Shown: positions 6,026 to 33,600 of the stretch, in pieces | Layout: each line of letters begins with the position of its first letter | Position numbering within the stretch: position 1 is the first letter of the stretch | From: Chrysoperla carnea | Taxonomy: Eukaryota > Arthropoda > Insecta > Neuroptera > Chrysopidae | Length of the DNA stretch: 64,000 bases | Assembly: GCF_905475395.1 (NCBI RefSeq) | Contig: NC_058337.1 | Location: 28,482,983 to 28,546,982, forward strand | Direction of reading: 5' to 3' | The notes under the pieces: model-generated | What the model saw: the letters and a program-made list of their open reading frames with translations, nothing else | Told to the model about the DNA's origin: nothing | The model's database searches: none | Translations under genes and position numbers: made by a program

Positions 6026-6085
6026 TAGGTATGAAGTTCGACATCTAAACATTCAATTTTAATTCATTTGAAAACTGATTCTAAA

Positions 6086-9015
6086 ATGATACCTTCTCCA
6101 ACAAAACCATGGGAGGGTCTAAACAGCTCAGCTGGAGCATCCATTTTACCAAGAATTGAAACAGTTGCACCAGCTCCATCAATTCAACCAACCCAAAACA
6201 TTGCACAACAACCATCACTTCCACCACCGTTAAATCCACGACTTGCAGCAAATATTTCTTCGGGAAATTTTGGACAACCTACTACCACCTATGGCAGCTA
6301 TGGAAGCAGTATGCCCTATAATTCATACGGAACGTCATATGGATCCTATGGTGGGGGATATGGTAGCTATGGGGGTGGCTATGGAGGATACGGAGGAGGT
6401 GGTTATGGAAGTTATGGTGGATATGGAAGTTATGGTGGAATGAACAGTTTCGGTTACGGTGGTGGACTTAATTCACAGTATAATTCATATAATCAACCTG
6501 AAAATCGGTAAGTTTTTTTAATACACTGAGTAAAAGTGATTCCGACATCGCCCACAACAATTATAATCAGTGATTTTAATTATTAAGGGAAGTTATGTAT
6601 CTATGACCTTTCTATCTAACCTTTTATTTATACATTGCATACATAATTTTCAAATCCAATAAATAATAAATTTTTTGAGAGAAAGATCGATTGCCAGTAC
6701 AAAGCATCAAGAAAAAGAAAAAGAAGCTGATCTATCTATTAGAAAGTGGCCACAAACCGAAAATCAAATAAATTGGATACTTATTTAGATTTTTTGTATC
6801 TTATTAATGGCAAAATATAGATTTTAAGAGTTAAAGTATTTAAAAGAATTTTCTCAAATCTTTCTGATAGAAATATTTTTATACACAAAGTATGACACGT
6901 TTTTATCTATGTTTTCCAAATGCATATTGGTTCAGATTGACGCTCGTAAAAAGAATATAGCGTCAACGCTTCAAGAAAATTAAACTTCCTAACGTACTTA
7001 AAGTCAACGTCACTTACTTATTGACTTGAGTCTTGACATGCAAATTAGATGTCAATGAAAAATTATTTTTGCTGGCAAAAAGAGAAATAAAAGAATATTC
7101 TAATAATTACTCGGGAAAGTTTACTATCGATAAAGTCAACGTCTTAAAATTTTTCTTCATACAACCATTTCTGCTAAAAAATGGACTTTGTGATCTTACA
7201 TGGTTGTTTTATAACCATGCATATTAAATTAATTATGAAAGTTATAAATATAAATACAAGGCTGTTCAAAAGTCATTGTATTAATTTTTTGAAGAAATTA
7301 AAAAAATTTATAGTAAAATTAACTATTTTGATTAATTTTTCATTTTCAATTAATTTTTAAATTTTATAGACTTGTCGCATAAAAAATTTTTCTATTTAAA
7401 TTTCTACAAACATGTTTTTATGATTTTAATTTATTAATTAAATTTATTTTTAAAACTTCCGAATTATTTAACCTTTTGGGATATCGAGATCTAGCTTCTG
7501 CTAGAAACAATTATTAAAGCTTGTCACTTAATATTACTGACATTTATGAAAAATTTGATTAATAGGAACTTAAATATAACAAGCATACTATATTTAATAG
7601 CCGAAGGAGCATTAAGTTGTAACGGCATATATATTTTTCGAGTTGATTTTAATTATTTAATTGTTAAAATAAATGCAATATTTTCAACTAATCTGTTACA
7701 AAATGTGTGCTGCAGTTTTATATTTCTATGTTTAATTAGTGATTCGTTTAAAGAAATTTTTATATTTAACAAATTTTGTATTAAAACTGTCTCACGAAAA
7801 TAATAAAAATTCTTTAAAAATTTAAAATACATAAAGAATGATTTAAAAAGGTAACTTAAAATAGTAAGTTTTCTGCTACGAGGCAAAACCTGACTCAGCA
7901 TATTTTTCAATTCCGTTACGAATAATGTTTGTATGAACGAAATTTTGATTCTACAAAAATTTTCTATAAAATATTATCTTCATTTACGAGGAAAATTAAT
8001 CCCATTTTAATCGTCACTAATAATGGATTCATAATCGTTTTGTTTGGGGAGTAAAAGCTCTCGAATTGATATCACAAACATTTCTTAACTTTGATTGAGC
8101 AACTTTCCTAAAATTTGGAAAACTTTTCTGAGACCAATGAGAAAATTATTGATATAACATACAAATTTATAATAAAATTATTTATTTTTTAATACCTTCT
8201 TTATCTCATTTCAATGACAAAACAAATGCTAAGTAAATAATTTATTAAAAAAATTCTTTGAATATAAATTAAATATATATTTTTTTTGTATTCAAAATAG
8301 GTTCATTCAACTGGCGGAAGAGAGTACACGACCTACTTTTCAAAGCATCGAATCAATTGTTCGAACATTCAGCTCAATGGCTATGATGTTAGATCAGACA
8401 TTCTTTGCAATGACTTCATCATTCCGTGCTGTTTTATCCGTGGCAGATAGTTTTGCTCGACTGCGTTCAATGATGCAATATATGTGGTCTTCATTTGCTC
8501 TATTTAAGGCGATTAATTGGTTGTTTAGAAAATTAATGACTTTGTTGCGAATATACGATGCTAAGAAATTAGAAGAAACCAATTTAAATCAAGCGTTTAA
8601 AAATGCTATTACCACACCAGAAGAGGTAGCTAATTCACCATCAAAATGGCCATTAGCCGTATTTTTAGGAGTTATTATTTCCGCACCATATATCATTTCT
8701 AAAATGATTGGATCTTCATTAAATACTACCCCAACAAATGAAGATGCAAATATTCTTTTTAGAAAAGTTAAATCAACGTATGGTTACACTGCACGACAAG
8801 CACATGAATTAAGTTTTGCACCAGGTGAAATGTTATCAATTTATCCAGATGATATACAACAGAAGAATGGTTTAGTTCGATCTGGATGGGTTCTAGCGAA
8901 AAATTCACAAGGAAAACGAGGTGTTGTACCAATTAATTATTTCTTACAAAAATCCGTATCAAATTCAACAGGAAATAATGTACCTGCTTCTACTCAGCAA
9001 GAAAATGTTAATTAA
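6086..9015 (+). CDS. Peroxin-13, peroxisomal import docking protein
   Basis: This is the peroxisomal membrane protein that, with Pex14, docks cargo-loaded Pex5 for matrix protein import. Coding exons are 6086-6507 and 8301-9015, with a GT donor at 6508 and an AG acceptor at 8299-8300, giving 378 aa (family about 400). The start is the first ATG after a pyrimidine-rich acceptor at 6024-6025, so an upstream non-coding exon is likely; no ATG precedes it in this exon. The N-terminus begins MIPSPTKPWE, followed by a Gly/Tyr/Ser-rich tract (about residues 65-130) typical of the family. The second exon encodes the conserved Pex13 core (PTFQSIESIV onward, about 150-240), a hydrophobic membrane segment (about 257-274, WPLAVFLGVIISAPYIIS) and a C-terminal SH3 domain (about 295-358, with ALYDY-like YGYTARQAHELSF and SGWVLAK). 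Residues after 358 are a short polar tail. Identification is firm; exact start is likely. Confidence 0.95.
6508..8300 (+). other. pex13 intron
   Basis: 1.8-kb intron with GTAAGT donor and a CAAAATAG acceptor. It is very AT-rich. The short frames inside lack protein-like composition, and no transposon ends were recognised. Confidence 0.85.
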
Positions 9016-13335: not shown

Positions 13336-13975
13336 CTTAAACAAGTGAAAACAAACAATTGACTGAGTTAATTGTTGAAATACCATGAATAGTCAGTGTT
13401 GATTTCTTTATCACATAACACATACAAACATGTGACACATACATAACTAATAAAGTATAGTACATATGTAAATGACTTTATAGGTTTCTGCATTACCGAC
13501 CGACATTTAGTGTATGGTTTGTTAACATATTATAAAATTTCCGCCTAATTGGCGCCCTCACGGGTAAACAGTGATGTTTACGAAAAAATGTTTCAAACAA
13601 AAGTTGTTTAATTTTTGATAAGGAACATTTTTTACATTTAAACTTTTGTTCTATCTCTAACGGTTTATAAGATGGGTCCTACGGACCCAAGACCCAATTG
13701 ACCTATGATGCTCATTTACGAACTTGACCTCACTTTTTATGTCCTGAGTACGCTATAAAAATTTCAGCTCGATATCTTTTTTCGTTTTTGAGTTATCGTG
13801 TCCACAGACGGACGGACGGACGGACGGACAACCGGAAATGGACTAATTAGGTGATTCTATGAACACCTATGACAAAATTTTTTTCCTAGCATCATTATTT
13901 TTAAGCGTTACAAACTTGGGACTAAACTTAATATACTATGTATATTTCATATATGCATGGTATAAAAAAAGGGAG
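13336..13975 (+). repeat. 'GACGGACGG' interspersed repeat, longest copy
   Basis: About 640 bp. It starts with AAACAAGTGAAAACAAACAA, has GTGATGTTTACGAA in the middle, then a GGAC tetranucleotide run at about 13808-13830, and ends near CATATATGCATGGTAT. Related copies occur at 15551-15735 and 22531-22842 on + and at 42092-42912 and 60298-61130 on -. There are no long terminal inverted repeats and no open frame, so a non-autonomous element is likely. Class undetermined. Confidence 0.8.
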
Positions 13976-15550: not shown

Positions 15551-15735
15551 AAAACAAGTGAAAACAAACAGTTGACTGAGTTAATTGTTGAAATATCATG
15601 TATAGACAGTGTTGATTATACTGTCACATTACACATACATACATGTCACACATATATTACTGATAATCTCTTATAATACATATAACACAATTTGCGCCCT
15701 TACAGAGACACAGTGATGTTTACGAACAGTGCTCC
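15551..15735 (+). repeat. Partial copy of the 'GACGGACGG' repeat
   Basis: It matches the first about 185 bp of the 13336 copy, from AACAAGTGAAAACAAACA to GTGATGTTTACGAA, and then diverges into unique sequence. It lies under 1 kb upstream of the neto start. Confidence 0.8.
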
Positions 15736-16587: not shown

Positions 16588-19500
16588 ATGGTGCAGATTT
16601 TTGAACGATTTATAACAAATTTTTGGTTGATTTATTTAGGTAACAAATTTTTCCATAAAAGAACATTTTTTTTATATTAAATTTTATAATAATTGATTGT
16701 TATTTTTATTATTAATTTTTAGTTATATATTTATCGGGAATTGTAAATGTTGGAGGAATTGAAGATGAAGTAATTCGAGGTAAATATTCGAAATTTGTTT
16801 TTAAAATAATTTTTAATTTTAATGATTTTTACAGAATTTTTACCTAAAAAAAATGATTTAACATCACCAACCCCATTTATACGACGAAATTCTTATAATA
16901 AATATGCAAAACATAAAAATGTTAAAAGGGAGACAAAACGGCCTTTCTTCGAATATGGGTCAATAGAAGGACCTTGTCGAAATTTTATTGAGGGTGATGT
17001 TGAAGCGCAAATGTTTACAACACCAGCATTACCTGATGATGACAAATATCCAAATAAAACAGATTGTGTACGAGTTATTGAAGGTAGGTCAGGATTATTT
17101 TATATTTAACGATATTACGACTAGATCAAAGGTGATTTAATTTAATTTAAATTTTCCCGCTCAAACATGTTAAATACGAGTGACGAAATAGTACAATAAA
17201 CGTGTTAAACCATATTTACCTATATAAGTTTTATTTATATATTTGTTAAACCAACATAATATGCCATGAAAATTACTTTTTCTCACCTCCGCGTAGGAAG
17301 TGTCAACTTTCTGCCTAATGTGCAAAACAAAATTGCCGCTTTCCGCCTCCGTCGGGGAGAAAAATAGTATACACACCACGGGAACAAGTGAAAAATGCCT
17401 CAAATCTCATTTTTACCATGAATGAACATGAGATCTAAGACATTCTATACTTTTGCTAACTAGGTGTGTTATATACTACTGAAAAAGTGATTAAACTGCA
17501 ATCATTACCGTTTCCACGGACGAAAAACTAATATTTCAGAAAATAAAAAATTCTCTTTTGAAATTAGTTAGACACTTAAAAAAGTCAATTATTAAGAAGT
17601 TAAAAGTCAAGTAAGTCGGTTCTAACTAAGCGCTTCCGAGCGGTAAACGCTCCCGTTGAATTTTTTTTTTGTCACTCCTTTTTGATTGATTGTTGCAGCA
17701 AATAAAATTTAAAAAAAATTGTAGGCCAGGCTGATTAACCATTTTCATAAATTATAAGTAAAGTGGATTTCTTTTGAAATGAGGGCGTGCTCTCTTATTT
17801 TTAAACATTTTTTAAAATAAATTATCCACGAAATATAATAGTTATTAAATTATTATTAAAAAATCGTTTTAGCCAATTATGTAATTGAGTCTTATATAGG
17901 CTTGTATAAAATAGATAAACTATATTATTTACAATAATCGTACGGACGAAATTATGACTTTTAGAAAGAATATTCAATTTTTCTATAACAATGTTAAACT
18001 CAATTAAATAATTGGCCAATTTTTAGACTCTATTATACTTTAATTCATTTATTTACTTCACGGCTAATTTAATATTTAATTCACTTTATTTGAATGGGTA
18101 TGGTTTAAGCCAAATAATTTTTTAAATTATAGTACTGTTTTTTTGGATATTTATAAAACGGAAATTAGATAAGAAAAAAAGTTTAGGGAAATGAAGTTAC
18201 TATTTACATAGAAGACACTTTCAGCTTTCAAATCACGTCTGGTAGACTTCTATGCGATAATTACTGCAAGAAAAGCTCGTACTCTAACGATAAATAGCGC
18301 TTTTTCTAAAGAAAATAACAAGCTTGCTAATGGTTATCGATTTTCATGCAAAATAATTTTTGTACTTTAAAGCAATAAAATTAATTAGAAAAATGTTTCC
18401 TACTCGTTTATTTTGATTTAAAGGTACATTTTAAGAAATTTGCAAGTGCATGTTTAGGAATGAGGACCAAAATTCTGTACCGGTGAGTGTATGTGAATTA
18501 AATGAATTAAAGAGACTCATATTTCGTCAAATATCTCGTTAAGAAAGTTTAATTGTAAAATATTGATAAAAAGGCCTGAAAAACTAAAAATCTAAAACAT
18601 TTTTGTTTTGCTCCCTTGCAAAATTTAGTTTTTGTGATATGGTATCCTTTTCTCTGGGCTACACAATTTTTGTACTAGGCTCTAATGTGGCGCTACTTTA
18701 AATTTACTTTTCCGACATCAGCGCTCCCATTTGATAACTTTATATTTTAACATAACTAATATTTTTTAAATGGAAATTAACATAATTGTTTATTTAAATT
18801 TTTTAGAAAATAGTATTAAATTTTCAATGTAAACCATATATACAATCCATAGACATATATGTCCATTTATAAAACTATATTAATAAAATAGTGTGTCGTT
18901 ACCCGGTACCTCCCTGAAATAAAAATCATGCACGGAGCGAATGTTAACTATTCACATCACACTTTAACATTTTTTTTTTAAATTTTAGCTCCAAAAGATC
19001 ATTTAATTTTATTGGATTTTCGTGAATATTTTGAATTGGAACAATCGCAAGACTGTAAATTTGATTATTTGGAGGTGCGTGACGGTGCTTATGGGTTTTC
19101 AGACTTAATTGGAGTATATTGTGGTGTTGGTTTTCCTGATATGATTACAAGTTCTGGACGATATTTATGGTTACATTTCAGTTCAGATGATAGCATAGAA
19201 TTACGTGGTTTTAAAGCAGTGTTTGAATTTGTACCACGGCCAACAAATAGTTAGTATTTTTATACAAATTATTATATGTTATTCAGTTACTGTATCTATC
19301 ATATTAAACAATTAGATAATGTCTGATGTATTGCATCAGACATAGCGCATGGAGAAGCGCATGTTCTCCATGCGCTTAACGAACCTTAAATGTGGGAATC
19401 GCTACAATTAAGGACGTTCCTCGGGAAGGACAAAAATATTACATTTTCTTAGGATCATTTTGAAATCGCGTATATGCATTCTCGTCAATGTTCTTTATAA

Positions 19501-22500
19501 GCAGGAAAATTTTAAATACCCCTTACGGTGCTAAATTTAAAGATTTAAGCTGTTAAAGTTTCCATTTTTAACAAGCAAATCCTATATTGAAGTGTTTTTA
19601 AAGGTATGCTTTACATAATAAAGCATACCTTGTTTCATAAAATAAGGCTAACTTTCATAGGATTAATTTGGAAAACTAATATTAAATATTTAAAAACATG
19701 ACAAATATTTTATAACAAGCGGAACTCGTTTTTCCATAAAATACATTTAAATTGAAGAAATGAGTGGCGTTTGTTTGTTATTTCTTCTAAAAGTGATTTC
19801 CTATAAATCTTTAGGCATCGATATTTCAAAACTCAAAGCATCGTGAATTTCTGCGCTCACTGATATTTAATTAATTTTAAAACTATATGGATTGTATAAT
19901 AATAATTTTTTATTTTAATACTAGTGGATCCGTGCGGAATTCTGCAGTACGCACCAAATCGTTTTGTGTGACAAAAAAAGTCTCAATTTTAGAGAAGCGG
20001 TATATTTTTATACCGTGGGTATATTTTTCGTCATTAGCCGACACGCAGAGTTTTAAAATGAAGGGTAAATCATGGAATTGATAAAAGTAGTAGTAATGAA
20101 TAGTAGCCTGGGCCGATTTCAGCACTACCAGCGCCTTGAGCAGTGCCGGAAACATCAGCCGGTGCTTTTTTCTGTTTTTTGGCGCAATTCCGTACAAATT
20201 TGTTTTTTTTTTCTTTTCCCTTTCTCATAAAAATTTTCCTTTTTTACTCTTCTTACCTGTGGCGCCCCGTCATATCTCACGCCCTGGGAGGTCAGCCAAC
20301 CTCACCCTACCCAACGCCTTTACTGATTGTAGCAGTTATATACGAAGTGGAAAACACGATGATTTTTGACGTAGTGAATTAAACTTTTTTATTTTTTTTT
20401 ATATTAATCTAAAAATAGTTAGATATTTCTTTGTCTATATCCTGAATACACAGCGCAAAGAAAATTTAAAGGCTTCAATCTGCGCATATACCTACTTATC
20501 AAAATTTGTTTCCGATGTTAATTTGAATATTAAATTGAGCTGTTTTTAAATCGATATTTCTTTAATTTTCGAATTTAAAAAAAATTTTATAATTTAATTT
20601 TAATGTTAGTTTTTTTTGTAAAGAAAAAACAATTGTAATGAGTTGATACAAAGATTCTGTAAATTAAATAATAAAAGTTATTATATAACTCAAGAAACGT
20701 TACAGAGACTCAGTCAGTCAATCAATTAGTTAATTGTTATTCATTCATTCAAGTCATCCAAGCATTATTATTTTTAATTTTTAGTTCCACCGGAATTTGA
20801 CGCCTGTGAAATAAATTACACCGATGTTGAAGGATTTATAAATAAAACCGACATATCAGATGAACGAATTAATAAATCCATCGATTACCGAGTGGCATTA
20901 GATTGTATGTGGACTATTACAGTTAAAGAAAATTGGAAGGTAAATTCTTGTTAATTCATCAAAGATTATGAAAAGAAAATAGCAACTACAGCTCTATGTT
21001 ATTATCCTTATGGAAAATATAGAACATTCGTACCAAATGGTATCTCGGAATCATTAAATGCAAGACCGCTTGATATTTTGGTGCCCATCCATACAATAAA
21101 AGAATGCGTAAACGAAGTACCACATACTCAAATTAACATCTGTCTTAAATAGTATACATCTAAATTTTAATAAGATCTCCTTTTTTTATTCCGCCCCCAC
21201 ATTAGTTCCATAGAATTAATAAAAAAAATGTCACTAAAAGAAATTTTAATTTTTCAGATTCAATTAAATTTTATAGATTATAAATTAGATCGACCAAATG
21301 AATGTGATAATAATTTCATTGATATATTTTCAAATAAAACGGATATACCATCAAGATTAAAAACTTTTTGTGGTTCCATACCCGATTCAGTGGCATCAAA
21401 GGGTAATATACTGTTCATTCGTTTTTATGCAGCTGTAAATGCGTTAAATTCAACATTTTCGATATTATATACGGCGTATCGAGACCGTGGTGAAACTGCT
21501 AAAAGTAAATTTACTTATTTATATTTCATTATATAATGCGATTTCTTAGTTAGAAAAAGGAATAATGTATGAAACTTTGCCAAAAAATGTATAAATGCAC
21601 GTTCCTTACACTAAGAAATCGTATAATGAGCCTGTCTAACATTTTTTTTTACATTATGCGTTTAGAAATATGGAAATATTATAAAATCACGTCACGTTTT
21701 CTTTAAGAATCGAATTATTTTTAAAATTAAAGACATTGATGCTGATCATTTACATCATTAACTGTAGAATTCCTTCAAAAAACGTTTTTTGTCTACTCCA
21801 AAATTTATTTTTACTGCAAAATGTAATTTTGCAACCCATTAAAAATTTTAAATACTGGTCATTTTGATTGAAATTTATTAAAAAAACTTTGAACTGGTAT
21901 GAATTGGTAAACAATTATTTTAATTTTCTGTTCATTGTAAAATTTACAAAAAATTTGTAAGCAGGCTCATTACATTTTATAAAGTGATCATGTTAATTTT
22001 TAACTTTAATATTAAACTTAATTTTAGATTGCAACGCTGGCGAATACGATTGTCAAGATAATACTTGTATTGATGATTCACTAAGATGTAATAATCGAAT
22101 TAATTGTCGTTATCGATGGGATGAGCAAGATTGTGTGGTAAGTTTAATGATGCATTTATCAGTCAGAAATTAAAACTACAACATGCGATAAATTAATCAC
22201 ATGCAGGTCCCTCGCTCGAAAAGTAGGTCTAGGCTCTAATTCTATTGCTAATTCACACCAATCACAGGAATTTTTTTAAAAACACAAACCTAGCCTACTC
22301 TATTAATTTTTATTCGTGTTCACATCGAAACATAACGATTTAAAGGTTTTTTTTTTTGAAATCTCCGAAATGGATCTCCGATAAAGAATACAAAACAAAT
22401 TTTTTACAAATTAGAGTTTAAAAAATGGTGGCTTTTAGGACGCCATGTATTTGGTTTTCGAAAATTTCGAAAATTATAGCATTTTAAAATCTAGCACTTC

Positions 22501-25500
22501 TTTTCGTTTTTTCGAGAATTTTTCCTAATTTGCAGTCTCACAGATAAACAGTGATGTTTACGAAAGCATGTTTCAGACAAAAGTTGTTTATTTTTTCATA
22601 AAGAACATGTTGCTTGCTCATTTACGAATTCAAACTTACTTTTTTTCTTCTCTATCTCTTTACGTTTTTGAGTTATCGTGATAACGGACGGGCGGACAGA
22701 CGGAAATGTACTAATTGCCTGATTTTATGAACACCTATACCAAAATTTTGTTCGTATTATCAATATTCTTAAGCGTTACAAGCGTTACAATTCTAAAATT
22801 AGTATACTTTGATATATATTTCATATATACAAGGTTATAAAAATTTTTATCATTCGAAGTAAACATGAATCAGAATTATCTGAGTAGGATAAGCACTCAC
22901 CGATTGGTGTGAGTGGCGCCATAGCTCGACCAAATTTTCAGACTGGGAACTGATGATCTGACCTAATACACGTGAACTCTTTGAAAGAATGAATTTCGAA
23001 ATCAATTTTCTATTCGATTAAATTTTGTTTATTTTTATTGTAGACTAAGAAAAAAAATCTTCCAGAACATATTATCATAATTATGGTTGTATTTTGTTTA
23101 ATTGTTTCTGGAATGTGTGCAGCATTTATATTTAACTGTGTGCGAAAATTAATGCGAGACCATCGGCTGATACAGGTGATTTTAATTTAAACATTTCTTC
23201 AAATAAAATATCAAGAAACTCATTAAATGATTGGATAAATCATACCTAGAATTTTACTATAAAAAACGGAGCGAATTTTTATGTATAAACAATAATTTAA
23301 ATAAATAAATAATTATTTAAATATATAAACAATAATTTAAATACAGTTAAAATAATGGGATAAGAGCTGCGTCTAGAAAAAATTGATTTCAATACAGCTG
23401 GAATCTGGATATTATATTTTTTATTGAAAATAAGAAGTGCGCATTCCTGAAAATAGCTTCGAAAATCGCCGATTTTAAAACCATTTCAAGACACTTTTTT
23501 AAAATCATTTTTCATGTTCTTTTAACAATATGAATTATCATTGCCAGACAGTTTTGCCGTTGTTAGCATCCCGCAAGATATTTCTCAAATTCTATATCCA
23601 TGGATAAATGGGCCCAGATTACTTGTTATTGAAAATTCTGATATAAAAATGTGGGTACAGTCTTGAAGGTTCATGTTCCAGTAATTTTAAATGTTTCCTT
23701 CTATAGCTGGCTCATAAAGGGCCTTCTTAACCCTTAGATAAAATCCATAATTATTTTTGGGACTCCTTTCATATTACTATATAAGTCGACTATTAAGCAT
23801 AAAACTGTAAATTTTTGTATTAACTGTTTTGTAGGAACATATACGGCAAAGTCGTGAAAATCGATTAGATGAAATTAAAAGTAGAAAAAAGAAATCGTCA
23901 TCATCAAAAGATGATTTAAAAAAATCAACAATATCGTTAATTGTACCGCCAACGGCCGTTACAATGCCACCACCTCCATTGCCACCTGCTCAAGTTATGC
24001 AGGGACGTATGTCACCAACGAACAGCGTACATTCTTCAAGTTCACAAGGTTTTCCAATACAAAACCCTTGTTATGTACCATCTAGAGGCTTACATCAAGA
24101 TTTAATTCCAATTTTAAAAGACACTAGTACAGGTTTTTATATTTTAAGGGCTATCCATTAATTACATCACATAAGTCTCTCCTCTAATATTGCGATTCCA
24201 CTTTTTGTAAGTTTAAATCCATTCATTTAAAATAATGAAAGAAATCGTTATCGTAATATAAACCTTTGTTAAATTTCCGGTTAAAAAAAATGCATTCGTT
24301 CTGTTGAAAATGTTATAACGTTTAAAAAATAAAATTATTATTTTTATCCATTTTTTATTCGTACAAAATGAACATTTCTCGAATGCTCCTTAGAAATATT
24401 TCGTTATCTATACACAGAGTGGGCCATTTTAATTTATTATGGCTAATAGCTCGTTTAAAGTTGCTGAATTTGATGGTGGAATTAATATTCTGACATCAAA
24501 TTGGACTTAGTTCTCCGCGTTGCTTTAATAGTCAATTTGGATCCTAACAGGTAAGAGTTAGAATAACACTTTAATTTAGAAATTTGATTCTTATAAAAAA
24601 ACTATCATTTTTTATTTAAAACATTTTTTCGCAAATCGTTAACTTTCGGTGAAATATGTTATTATTTATTAACTGAATGCCCTCTATTATCAAGAGCAAT
24701 AGAGGCCATTCGCTTGTACTCATGACTTTGTCATGGAATTCTAGTTTCAAGATCATTTGACCTTGATCTTCAAATGACCTTGTAAATTTACCTGGACTCA
24801 AAAGTTATTAACACAGACGAATAACCTTTGTTATTCTGAATAACTTTTGTCTACAAATTTTTCCTAAAGCCCAGCGTATTTTCTTTCGATTAAATACAAT
24901 TAATAATGTCATATATTTAAGTCACATTTCCTCCGAAAGCTAACGATTTTCGAGAAAATAATTTAAATAAAAAATGATAGCTTTATGAGGAAAAAACTTT
25001 CTAATTTAAAGTTTTATTCTATCTCTTACCTTTTAGGATCTAAATTGATTATTAAAGTAACCCGGAGAACTAAGTCAAATCTGATGTCAGAACTTGATGC
25101 CTCCCATCAAACTTTGCAACTGTTGTTTCAGTTATTTTTTGACTGGTTAATTATAAAACGAGCCATTAGCCATAATAGATCAATATGGTCCACCCTGTGT
25201 AGACGTAAAATTTTTGAGACATAAAAATTAACTTTTTAACGTGTTCACATCAATTTTCAGCAGATTTGCAATCGAATTGAATTGATTTTTTTACCTATCA
25301 CATCAGAGCACAATTTTTGGACTTTTTTACTGTCCTTTTTTATGTGATGGAATATATGAATGGCTTCATTATAAACTAGATCATATTTGAAGAAATTAAA
25401 TATTATGTTTTTGGTTTATTTTAGGAACTATGAATAGTTGTGAAGAAGGTCCAGAAGTTGTTCCAGAAATGTGTGACATGGCATGTCAAACACGTGAAAG

Positions 25501-25831
25501 TTTATTCACTACAACACCTCATCGAAGCCTATCAACATTTTCTGGTGGTAACAATAGTATAAATAATCAAAGTTATGGATGGAAAGTGCAAGCAAGTCAA
25601 CATTCCCAAGATAGCAGTAAACATACTAGTAATGATTTAAGTCAAACAACTTCACAACGATCACAACCACCGTATCGAGCGGAAGTGGCCATTGAAGTTC
25701 AACAGCAACAACCAGAAAAATCGGCTTCACCGGGTCACACAAATAAATGTCAAAAACAACATCGACCGCAACAACGACCATATAGTGTTCAAACGACAAA
25801 ATCAGCACCAGATGTGATTGTGACTCACTGA
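16588..25831 (+). CDS. Neto: CUB-CUB-LDLa-TM glutamate receptor auxiliary protein
   Basis: Neuropilin and tolloid-like proteins are single-pass membrane proteins. In Drosophila, Neto is required to cluster ionotropic glutamate receptors at the neuromuscular junction. Ten coding exons give 655 aa: 16588-16639, 16723-16779, 16835-17083, 18989-19249, 20785-20939, 21258-21504, 22028-22137, 23044-23175, 23835-24132 and 25425-25831. All junctions are GT-AG and keep frame. Domains in order: signal peptide (1 to about 30, hydrophobic core FWLIYLVIYL); CUB1 (about 84-203, with C84, FDYLEVRDG and the SSDDS calcium-site-like motif); CUB2 (about 214-333); a six-cysteine LDLa repeat (about 342-376, ending RWDEQDC); a transmembrane helix (about 387-409); and a cytoplasmic tail of about 246 residues, with a Pro-rich PPPPLPPA stretch and a Gln-rich section. 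The start is the only ATG giving a signal peptide. The first stop is TGA at 25829-25831, followed by a notable open extension. The CUB-CUB-LDLa-TM order makes the identification strong; isoform structure is not known from sequence. Confidence 0.93.
17084..18988 (+). other. neto intron 3 with a dispersed repeat
   Basis: 1.9-kb GT-AG intron splitting CUB1. It carries one copy of a moderately GC-rich repeat at about 17283-17450. The rest is AT-rich without genes. Confidence 0.8.
17283..17450 (-). repeat. Dispersed repeat (partner at 27.9-28.1 kb)
   Basis: The stretch shares CATGAGATCTRAGACATTCT, a GTGTGTATAC/GTATACACACC block and a CCGCCTCCGTCGG-type block with 27935-28125, in the opposite orientation. 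Frames read through it (minus strand) but are not conserved between copies, so this is a repeat rather than a gene. Confidence 0.6.
19320..19376. repeat. Two adjacent perfect hairpins
   Basis: TGTCTGATG (19320-19328) pairs with CATCAGACA (19334-19342). One base later, AGCGCATGGAGAA (19344-19356) pairs perfectly with TTCTCCATGCGCT (19364-19376) across a 7-nt loop. Perfect GC-containing stems back to back are unusual here. Confidence 0.9.
19601..19631. repeat. Perfect hairpin, 12-bp arms
   Basis: AAGGTATGCTTT (19601-19612) is exactly complementary to AAAGCATACCTT (19620-19631) with a 7-nt loop. It lies in the same intron as the double hairpin. Confidence 0.9.
20105..20345. repeat. GC-richer block, probable old mobile-element fragment
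   Basis: Within the AT-rich intron this block is distinctly GC-rich (for example GCCCTGGGAGGTCAGCCAAC and CCGGTGCTTTTTTCTG), with internal poly-T runs. Two overlapping open frames cover parts of it but do not resemble a protein I know. A transposon remnant is the simplest reading. Confidence 0.35.
21537..21633. repeat. Short inverted repeat in neto intron 6
   Basis: ATGCGATTTCTTAGT near 21537 pairs with ACTAAGAAATCGTATAAT near 21618, with about 60 bp between. It directly follows exon 6 and may be a very small foldback element. Confidence 0.6.
22531..22842 (+). repeat. Partial 'GACGGACGG' repeat in neto intron 7
   Basis: It matches the second half of the 13336 copy: GTGATGTTTACGAA, TTTTTGAGTTATCGTG, ACGGACGGGCGGACAGACGG, and the TTATAAACACCTAT-like and AAGCGTTACAA blocks. 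It lacks the 5' portion. Confidence 0.75.
24133..25424 (+). other. neto intron 9
   Basis: 1.3-kb intron in the cytoplasmic-tail coding region, almost filled by the foldback element at 24413-25199. Failure to splice it would end the protein ten codons later (stop at 24159-24161), giving a short-tail form. Confidence 0.8.
24413..25199. mobile_element. Foldback MITE with TA target duplication
   Basis: Almost the entire 787 bp is one inverted repeat: arms of about 370 bp around a short centre near 24800. The ends are CACAGAGTGGGCCAT at the left and the complement ATGGTCCACCCTGTG at the right, flanked by TA on both sides (24411-24412, 25200-25201). Shared internal blocks include CTGACATCARATTKGACTTA and TATCATTTTTTATTTAAA. 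No transposase frame is present. TA duplication and ends suggest mobilisation by a Tc1/mariner-type enzyme. Confidence 0.85.
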
Positions 25832-26005
25832 CAATATCTATCCCTGCCTAGGCCAACTTGGGAACCATATAGACGCAGAGTACCTCGACAATATCTACGA
25901 ACTTCACGTAAATTAATTAATAATTATGTATCTAATACTTCTTTTGATGATCATGTCTTAATTCGTGATGCTGAAACTCAAACTTCGAAATTTTTTAATT
26001 GTTAA
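25832..26005 (+). CDS. In-frame neto extension after the TGA (candidate readthrough)
   Basis: Directly after the neto TGA, the same frame runs 57 codons to a TAA at 26003-26005. It begins QYLSLPRPTWEPYRRR and ends in an ETQTSKFFNC-type tail. The first third is clearly GC-richer than the flanking DNA and encodes an Arg/Pro/Trp-rich peptide, unlike translated AT-rich spacer. The stop context is TGA-C, the leakiest known. No GT-AG intron that would skip the TGA and keep frame is visible: the nearest candidate, 25814-25851, is 38 nt and shifts frame. Alternatives are a recent nonsense mutation, an allele or an assembly error in a formerly longer neto tail. Confidence 0.55.
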   Translation, partial: QYLSLPRPTWEPYRRRVPRQYLRTSRKLINNYVSNTSFDDHVLIRDAETQTSKFFNC

Positions 26006-26393: not shown

Positions 26394-27008
26394 TAGGGAT
26401 GGGCGATGTTGGTAAAAAACATTGACATCGGAACATCGATTTTTCAATTTCTTGCCAGCGGACCATCGATGTTTTTAAGAAAACATCGTAACATCTATTG
26501 TTGATATCGATGGTAAGAATAATCCCGAAAATTTGAAAGAACAAAAATCAACATTTATACATTTAAGTAAATAACAATATTACTAAATCTAATCTCAAAT
26601 TTTTTCGATTCTTTTCAACTTGGTAATTATCAATAATGATAGATAATTTTTATAATTTTCAACTCATCACACTCACTGTAACATATGCAGAAGAAACGAA
26701 AACAAACATTCTTTTAAATAATAGAAATAAATTCATTTTTCTCAAATCGATTTATTATTGAAAAAAGAAAAAAAGTTAAAATTTTATATCAAGATAATAA
26801 TTTTCGTGTCTTCTTACTTTCGACTCGACGATGTCGATGGTTCATTACATTCCATCGAACATCAATGTTCCGACTTTTAAAAAAACGACCATCAACATCG
26901 ATGTTACTCCGCGGAAACATCAATGTATTTCGCCCATCTCTGACATGGAAAAATATCTTCCCAAAAAATATTGATAGTCGAAACATCGATGTATATCGCC
27001 CATCTCTA
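26394..27008. mobile_element. Non-autonomous hAT element
   Basis: The ends are TAGGGATGGGCGAT (left) and ATCGCCCATCTCTA (right), an inverted pair with one mismatch. They are flanked by perfect 8-bp duplications TCTCACAC (26386-26393, 27009-27016), diagnostic of hAT insertion. The 615-bp interior is non-coding and carries many subterminal ACATCGAT/ATCGATGT-type motifs. A second right-end-like string, CGCCCATCTCTGACATGG at about 26930, suggests an internal end duplication. No transposase is present. Confidence 0.93.
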
Positions 27009-30679: not shown

Positions 30680-33600
30680 TTAAATCATATCATTCAAAGC
30701 AAATTGTACATCATCTTGGCAAACATTCAAATACATTTGTTCAATAACATGATGTTTTGATTTCTCAATAACAATCATTTTTTGTTTAGCTAAATATTGT
30801 GCAACAGTTGTTAATATTGTACATGCAGGTTTTGTGATTCCTTCAAGTGTGCATAACGTATAGAATTGTTTTAAAACATTTTGATATGATGTTTCTTCTA
30901 CACCGATTCGCGTTACCTCAGCAATAATTGATTGTAAAAATAATTTTTCAATTTTCGTTAAACTTTTTATTAATTTTATTTGATCGGAGTTTATCATTTC
31001 ATTTAATGCTTCATTCACATGTTTTAAAGTAACACGAATTTCTGTTTGGTTTGTTGTTTCTTGATGGGCAGCTATTTCAGCAGCTCGACGACAAATATCT
31101 AAAGCACGTCGTGCATCTCCAGAAACAGCCGCAACTTTTCTAATGTTTTACAAAATAAATAATTTTTTATTTAAAAAATGAATATGAACTTAGAGATCGA
31201 TTGAACTTCGATTAATTGATTGACTCTTCCGATTGCTATCTAACTTAAAACTTTTTGATTTCCGATTTTTTAATTACACAGATTTATTTAATAGGATATT
31301 ATCCTTAGTCAAAAATAAATCATGAAATTTGAAAAAAGTTAAAATTTATGTAAAAATATACTTAAATATTCTGATTTCGAGTCATAAAAGTACATTTTTC
31401 TTTTATAATATTAAAATTAAAAATCGTAATTTTTAAACTGTATATCACGTGACCTAAAACGCGGGTAAGCCCTGCTGTGATGTCATATCGGTATGAGCCA
31501 TAGACAATCAGTTAGTTCAATGTAGACAGCTGGGTATAATATATCCATAGATAATAAGTATTTATATTTATTATAATCAGATGTCTATGAATAATATATC
31601 TGTCAAACTTTTCTGTGTTATTTCGTATAATGATACCGATATTACGTCACCAAATTGGATGCCCGCGTTTTTGACAGTTTAACAAAGGTTTAAAAATTAA
31701 TTTAAGTTATTATCAAGAAAGCGAGTGTATTTTTCCGAAATAAATTTTTGGTGGCTTTTTATTAGCAAAATCAACATTTTGAAGTACTTTTTCAAATATA
31801 GAATACCCTATTAGGATTTTAATAAGATTTTTGGATTGGATTGAATTAGATGGACAGAGAGAGTATAATAAGTTTTAAAAATTATAACAATAGCCGTACA
31901 ATCTTAAAATCTAGTTTCATTTGATCTCATATTTTCATTCCATTCATAAAATTAATTTTCCTTACCTTGCAACAAGTTGAATTGCTTCGCTTTGAAAAAT
32001 ATTTATTCCATCTAAACGGGTTGCGACAATTTGTTCTAATTGTTTAAAATTATATGGTTGGAATGGTAAGCGAGTTAGACCTAAACGACTAGCTACACGA
32101 CCCATTAAAAGTCTAAAAATGCAAATGATTCAAGTTATTTTCGTTATTAAATATTTAAAAAAAAAATAAAATTACCGTTCAGGTAAATCCATGGTATTTG
32201 AAATAGCAATTATAATTATTTTTGAATTTAATTTGCTTGGCCAGTCTAAAATATTATAAACTACGTCTTGGCGTTTCGTATGAATGATATCCAACTAAAA
32301 ATAAATTTAAATCCGTTAATATTTTAACTTTAGACAATTATTTCTATTTAAATTACCTCATCGACTAATAACACTATTGGTCGTTTTCGTTTACCATCAC
32401 CGAATATTTTCTTTTTAAGGCATTCATAAGCTTGATCCCAAACCAATCTTTTATTTGTGAGTTGTTTATAAATCTAAAAAATTGAATTCTACAATTTTCT
32501 TCAATACTTTTAATTTTGACTTGCTCTAGTGGAAAAAGTATTTGTAGAAAGAATAACTCTTAAAAATTCTGAAAATGTCTCAGGAACTCTGAATTTCTCA
32601 ACGTTTTTGGACTGTCTAATTCAGATTTAATAAGCCTGAATAACTCTGAATTAGACAGTCCAAAAATTCAGAGTTCTTAAGACTTTTTCAGAGTTTCTAA
32701 GGCTTAATAAGACTTATTCTTTCTTCAAATATTTTTTCCATCAAGGTGTTACTGAAATAACAAATTTGATGTTTAATTTTCTTAAGTTTTAGCGAAATTT
32801 CGATCCAGTTTTATGTATTTTGCATAGTTAAAGGATATTATTAACTTACCTCCACGTAAGCTTGTCTGGGTTCTGTTAATCGCATACCATTAATGTTTAC
32901 ATAATCAAAAACTGGAATATCACCATGATCAATTGTGCCCAAATTTTGTAAATTTCGTATCACTTCAGTGACTGTAGCTGTTTTACCCGTACCAGGTACT
33001 CCTGCTACATACATACACCTAAAAATAAATAAGCGAAATTAGTTATAAAATTTCGTAAGGAATCTCTTGAATTCTTACCCGCTAGAATCTGTAGATAATT
33101 TACTGTAAACAAAATTAAAAATATCAGAATATTCACTCTCACGGCACGGTAAAGATTCAGGTACTTTTGAAACGTGTAATTTTTCTCGAACCACATCTAA
33201 TTCAGTATTTTCTTTATGTAAATGATTTTTCATTGGATGTGGTGAATCGATTACAAATGATATTCGTCTACGAATAGGAGTTTGTTTAGGTGTATTTGGA
33301 GTTTTGATTATACTTTTAATATTTTTTACTCTATTAACTGGAGTGTTCTCTAAAACAATATTAACTGTTATTTATTTAAAAATTATTGTAAGTCTTTTGT
33401 TTAACGAACCTGGTTTTATTTTCTCAATTGTTTTCGTTTTTGGTTTTTTTGGTGAGCTGATATTTAATGGTAATAGGTCTTCAGTTATTTCTGCCAATTT
33501 TTTTCGAGTACGAGGTGTTGTAGTTGATGTCTTGGTTGTTGGTTTTCTTTTAGATGGTGATTGTAAAAATATTGAATCACTTGAATCAGAATCATTATCA

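Follow-up and report, generated by a model that had tools for sequence, protein, structure and literature searches.

A candidate leaky TGA-C stop and a 57-codon in-frame extension at the end of neto in the lacewing Chrysoperla carnea

The TGA-C that ends the neto coding frame of Chrysoperla carnea is most likely a leaky stop, and in the one genome examined we regard readthrough as the best single explanation of the sequence behind it, giving it about an even chance. The window, the whole stretch of 64,000 nucleotides that was analysed, corresponds to positions 28482983-28546982 of chromosome 1 in assembly inChrCarn1.1; coordinates below are those of the window, and features lie on the plus strand unless stated otherwise. 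A sequence-only reading had claimed that the neto frame stops at a TGA followed by C (25829-25832) and then stays open in the same frame for 57 codons, and this is confirmed: the TGA occupies 25829-25831 and the in-frame extension 25832-26005, including a TAA at 26003-26005. According to the mechanism that we propose, most ribosomes would terminate at the TGA and yield a 655-residue Neto, and a minority would read the UGA with a near-cognate tRNA and continue through the 57 codons to the TAA, so that the basic cytoplasmic tail would grow from 245 to 303 residues. A basic stretch and a TQT motif in the extension may then give a fraction of the receptor complexes extra contacts, for example with the dynein light chain LC8. 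We infer all three of these things, namely actual readthrough by ribosomes, selection on the extension, and extra contacts. The shares assigned below to readthrough, chance, nonsense change, and splicing are judgements, not computed posteriors.

Neto is a helper protein of glutamate receptors. The gene is complete in the window, with ten exons that have GT-AG borders and consistent phases and together encode 655 amino acids. Chained in frame, these are exon 1 (16588-16639; start codon and signal-like sequence), exon 2 (16723-16779), exon 3 (16835-17083), exon 4 (18989-19249; first CUB region according to Pfam), exon 5 (20785-20939), exon 6 (21258-21504), exon 7 (22028-22137; LDLa-like), exon 8 (23044-23175; transmembrane helix by eye), exon 9 (23835-24132; cytoplasmic tail, ending in phase 1), and the last exon (25425-25831; cytoplasmic tail to the TGA, with a positive codon score). 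In a Pfam search with the last 535 residues, two CUB stretches lie above the cut-off (E = 3.1e-32), and the LDLa match is full length (1-37 of 37) at 21.8 bits, just under the curated cut-off of 24.1. The hydrophobic stretch from residue 387 is a putative transmembrane helix; like the signal-like start, it was recognized by eye. Up to the TGA, the 245-residue tail has a pI of 9.5, and it has one matching locus in the genome (559 Mb, 337 contigs). The donor at 24133 (CAG/GTTTTT) is weak, and reading past it (24130-24161) gives GFYILRAIH and then a stop; thus, retention of the last intron would yield a short tail.

The extension encodes the peptide QYLSLPRPTWEPYRRRVPRQYLRTSRKLINNYVSNTSFDDHVLIRDAETQTSKFFNC (pI 10.0), from which trypsin would release LINNYVSNTSFDDHVLIR. 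The earlier description of it as rich in Arg and Pro and containing aromatic residues holds, with 8 Arg, 4 Pro, 4 Tyr, and one Trp among the 57 residues. So does the description of its start as richer in GC than its surroundings: the first 60 nt have 48% GC, compared with 33% over the full extension, 40% in the last exon, and 29% across the window. No Pfam domain was found in the extension at E values up to 1. When the genome was searched with it, both as protein and as DNA, no second copy was found, the single match being the extension itself (the DNA search skips very common words); a repeat origin was set aside on this ground.

How often would chance alone produce such an open run? In the window, real exons included, 157 of 9,099 stop triplets are followed by at least 57 open codons; in a random sample of the same genome (20 pieces of 10 kb, 200 kb in total; not purged of genes), 565 of 27,240 are. 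The sequence-only reading had called an open run of this length in such AT-rich spacer unlikely; this is right, but the effect is modest, as about 2% of stop triplets are followed by one. It is therefore conceivable, and in our judgement somewhat unlikely, that the extension belongs to the 3' untranslated region and that its neto frame lacks a stop for 57 codons by luck. The 565 chance runs from the random sample serve as the reference for this explanation in what follows.

Codon usage was scored as log-odds trained on 5,986 codons, mostly from 20 kinase domains with the addition of the neto, PEX13, and ORC1-like exons; because kinase domains predominate, the amino acid composition of the training set is biased. 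The extension scores +1.3 bits, which is between coding and noncoding. It beats 524 of the chance runs, whose mean is -13, leaving 41/565 that score as high, while a score this low is seen for only 2 of 94 coding windows in leave-one-out scoring and for none of 89 in-sample. With synonymous usage alone, it scores 2.1 bits, a value reached by 45/565 chance runs, and 14/94 coding windows are as low. The signal is specific to the frame: over 20-codon windows that lie within the extension, scores run from +0.8 to +3.7 in the neto frame and from -5.5 to -10.5 in the other two, and the lead of the neto frame is equalled by 33/565 chance runs. Past the TAA, all three frames are negative, so that the signal ends at the TAA. 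It is also uneven, the last 50 codons being coding-like and the first 7 noncoding-like. The former score +6.2 bits (31/565 chance runs are as high and 23/108 coding windows as low), and the latter score -4.9, a level reached by 6 of 5,800 coding windows, 8.4% of noncoding windows, and 41/565 chance runs. Among 93 coding windows, 3 have a dip this deep at some point within 57 codons.

The noncoding-like start and the chance runs that match the extension in score or in frame lead speak for a chance open frame. Against it, an open run and a coding-like score are jointly rare, the signal stops at the TAA, and the stop context is TGA-C, which makes up 3.8% of stop triplets in the random sample. Readthrough is favoured over chance because of the open frame, the partial coding signature, and the TGA-C taken together. 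The claim that TGA with a following C is a leaky context also agrees with a 2016 survey, in which both features are favoured among insect readthrough candidates: 61 to 76% of grouped candidates have TGA and 49 to 63% have C as the next base (PMC5100048).

Because the codon signal is uneven and a pyrimidine-rich sequence ending in CCTAG lies at 25851, we considered alternative splicing, in which 25852-26005 would be an alternative last exon, the candidate 3' splice site (25832-25851) its acceptor, and the TGA intronic. The 7 noncoding-like codons precede this acceptor and the 50 coding-like codons come after it, and the 2016 survey generally classed such a noncoding-then-coding pattern after a stop as splicing (PMC5100048). 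With a generic matrix, the acceptor scores 4.7, compared with at most 2.7 for the eight neto acceptors tested (that of exon 2 is left out), and among 17,307 coding positions just 1 reaches that value. With matrices made from the genome itself, the picture is reversed. The acceptor scores -6.6 when 20 genome acceptors are used, whereas 19 of these score from 1.8 to 9.5 in leave-one-out scoring (the 20th, at -14.6, is probably mis-assigned), and 1.7% of coding positions score as well. Genome acceptors are T-rich, and the site at 25851 lies below the credible ones. A separate genome-derived matrix likewise puts it below known sites, which were part of the training of that matrix. For the genome splice matrix, 21 kinase exon junctions were tried, of which 12 gave introns and 9 none; one of the 12, at kinase locus L052, is probably mis-assigned, and locus L060 was left out.

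The acceptor at 25851 also requires a donor in phase 2, whereas the neto exons all finish in phase 0 or 1. Within the last exon, the strongest phase-2 GT lies at 25471; it scores -0.6 with a generic donor matrix, above three of seven neto donors, but -2.1 with the genome matrix, below all 19 donors. Nine candidates for a hidden exon were found between exon 8 and position 25800; two are shortened forms of exons 9 and 10, and the other seven score 0.4 bits or less. Joining the normal donor to the acceptor at 25851 shifts the reading to a different frame, in which 20 codons score -10 bits. A splice around the TGA is thus possible and poorly supported, with an outcome that depends on the splice site matrix, and we hold it to be very unlikely.

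A coding-like signal would also be seen without any readthrough if the extension were the ancestral C terminus of Neto and an Arg codon CGA had changed to TGA in this lineage or haplotype, leaving a shorter protein. This explanation is suggested by a short repeat: TGACAATATCTA at the stop (25829-25840) has an in-phase near-copy, CGACAATATCTA, 57 nt further on (25886-25897), and their first base is the sole difference. When the codons of the extension were shuffled, 12 of 2,000 shuffles reached the 11 nt of the in-phase repeat with the TGA; without the TGA, the repeat is 9 nt long and is reached by 106 of 2,000, and it was spotted post hoc. In Drosophila melanogaster, 17 recent nonsense changes have been reported against 333 readthrough candidates (PMC5100048). 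Because of these base rates, readthrough is favoured over a recent nonsense change, which we consider unlikely. A base error at the TGA is unlikely as well, because the assembly was built from long reads (40x PacBio, hifiasm) and polished with 147x 10X short reads (PMC10116181).

The proposal that the neto stop is read through therefore stands in part. It is strengthened by the TGA-C context, by the lead of the neto frame up to the TAA, and by the poor support for splicing and the low likelihood of an error; it is weakened by the intermediate codon signal and by the first seven codons. Other ways of passing or changing the stop were put aside. Selenocysteine insertion at the UGA was rejected, as the window has no match at gathering scores to any Rfam model, the SECIS models that belong to Rfam included. 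ADAR editing of UGA to UGG was put aside on general knowledge; ADAR disfavours a G preceding the edited A. A search for an unusual RNA fold after the stop found none, with z scores of +0.4 and +0.6 for longer stretches and -0.5, -0.6, and 0.0 for shorter ones; a predicted RNA structure is present in only 9% of known readthrough candidates (PMC5100048). No insect relative of Neto, be it as contaminant or as captured DNA, was found among genome contigs searched with 535 amino acids of the protein or among viral contigs searched with the extension and the CUB region.

Readthrough has been reported as abundant in most insects tested, and readthrough of TGA-C is well established (PMC5100048). Neto resembles the insect candidates of Jungreis et al. 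(2016; PMC5100048) in having TGA-C, a long in-frame second open reading frame, and a coding-like signal that does not continue past the second stop and in being a long gene of the nervous system. It differs from them in four respects: the extension exceeds most in length, the 7 codons at its start are noncoding-like, a possible acceptor lies 20 nt past the stop, and the case is built on one genome, whereas the insect candidates are based on alignments of many species (PMC5100048). If real, neto would be a further case of the already known insect readthrough. We found no report of neto readthrough in the literature on Neto, Chrysoperla, or Neuroptera; supplementary lists, which may include neto, lay outside this search. 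The corresponding fly gene numbers are CG32635 and CG44328. The word "neto" is absent from the main text of PMC5100048.

In Drosophila, Neto is made as two splice isoforms with different tails, while a single isoform, related to Neto-beta, is said to be present in most non-dipteran insects (PMC4408064, PMC11188076). The lacewing protein is like Drosophila Neto-alpha and Neto-beta in its CUB domains, LDLa-like stretch, and putative transmembrane helix, and its variable, basic tail is beta-like (PMC4408064, PMC11188076). Alternative exons account for the difference between the two fly tails, of 206 and 351 residues (PMC4408064, PMC11188076), whereas the proposed difference in the lacewing, 245 or 303 residues, would be translational.

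The codons for RDAETQTS (25964-25987) in the extension encode a candidate LC8-binding TQT motif. By published motif rules (PMC6607443), it is like LC8 ligands in its TQT anchor, its Asp at -4, and its Arg at -5, and it is unlike favoured ligands in its Ala at -3, which is disfavoured; many TQT peptides fail to bind LC8 (PMC6607443). When the residues of the extension are shuffled, 1.7% of the shuffles contain a TQT triplet. A parallel case is the postsynaptic scaffold GKAP, which binds LC8 (PMC12797016). The ordinary Neto tail contains two more QT motifs, DMACQTRE (25475-25498) and SVQTTK (25784-25801), which by eye resemble weaker LC8 anchors.

The sequence-only reading had proposed a regulated longer form of the cytoplasmic tail. 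A regulated longer Neto tail that makes new contacts with receptors or scaffolds is conjectural and might be imagined as follows: lacewings, perhaps together with other insects that have a single isoform, would use a translational switch in place of splicing, and UGA-C readthrough would add a basic, TQT-containing tail by which a small fraction of glutamate receptor complexes is coupled to LC8 or another scaffold. We consider this broader scheme quite improbable. If true, translation would be a point of control for the tail that decides which partners glutamate receptors have at insect synapses, the tail diversity that splicing provides in flies could be reached by a second route, and a lacewing would be added to the insects with readthrough. 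If the extension is due to chance or to a recent nonsense change, the case is an ordinary one.

Several other features of the window were observed. The last neto intron contains a fold-back repeat (24404-25208) with three pairs of inverted arms that are 82 to 86% complementary; it has many relatives in the genome, with at least 127 matches when 40 out of 4,913 candidates were scored. Repeat sequence is also present in the 3' flank of neto at 26394-26905, with 11 partial genomic matches elsewhere at 75 to 94% identity. A dispersed noncoding repeat with ACAGTGATGTTTACGAA was seen by eye in neto introns and flank (13567-13590, 15708-15730, and 22540-22565). Neighboring genes include PEX13, with an exon at 8233-9015 that encodes Peroxin-13_N (E = 6.9e-41) and an SH3 domain; a Gly/Tyr-rich open frame at 6035-6511 may be the first part of the same gene. 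On the minus strand, an ORC1/CDC6-like exon lies at 30680-31147 (Cdc6_C, E = 3.9e-10).
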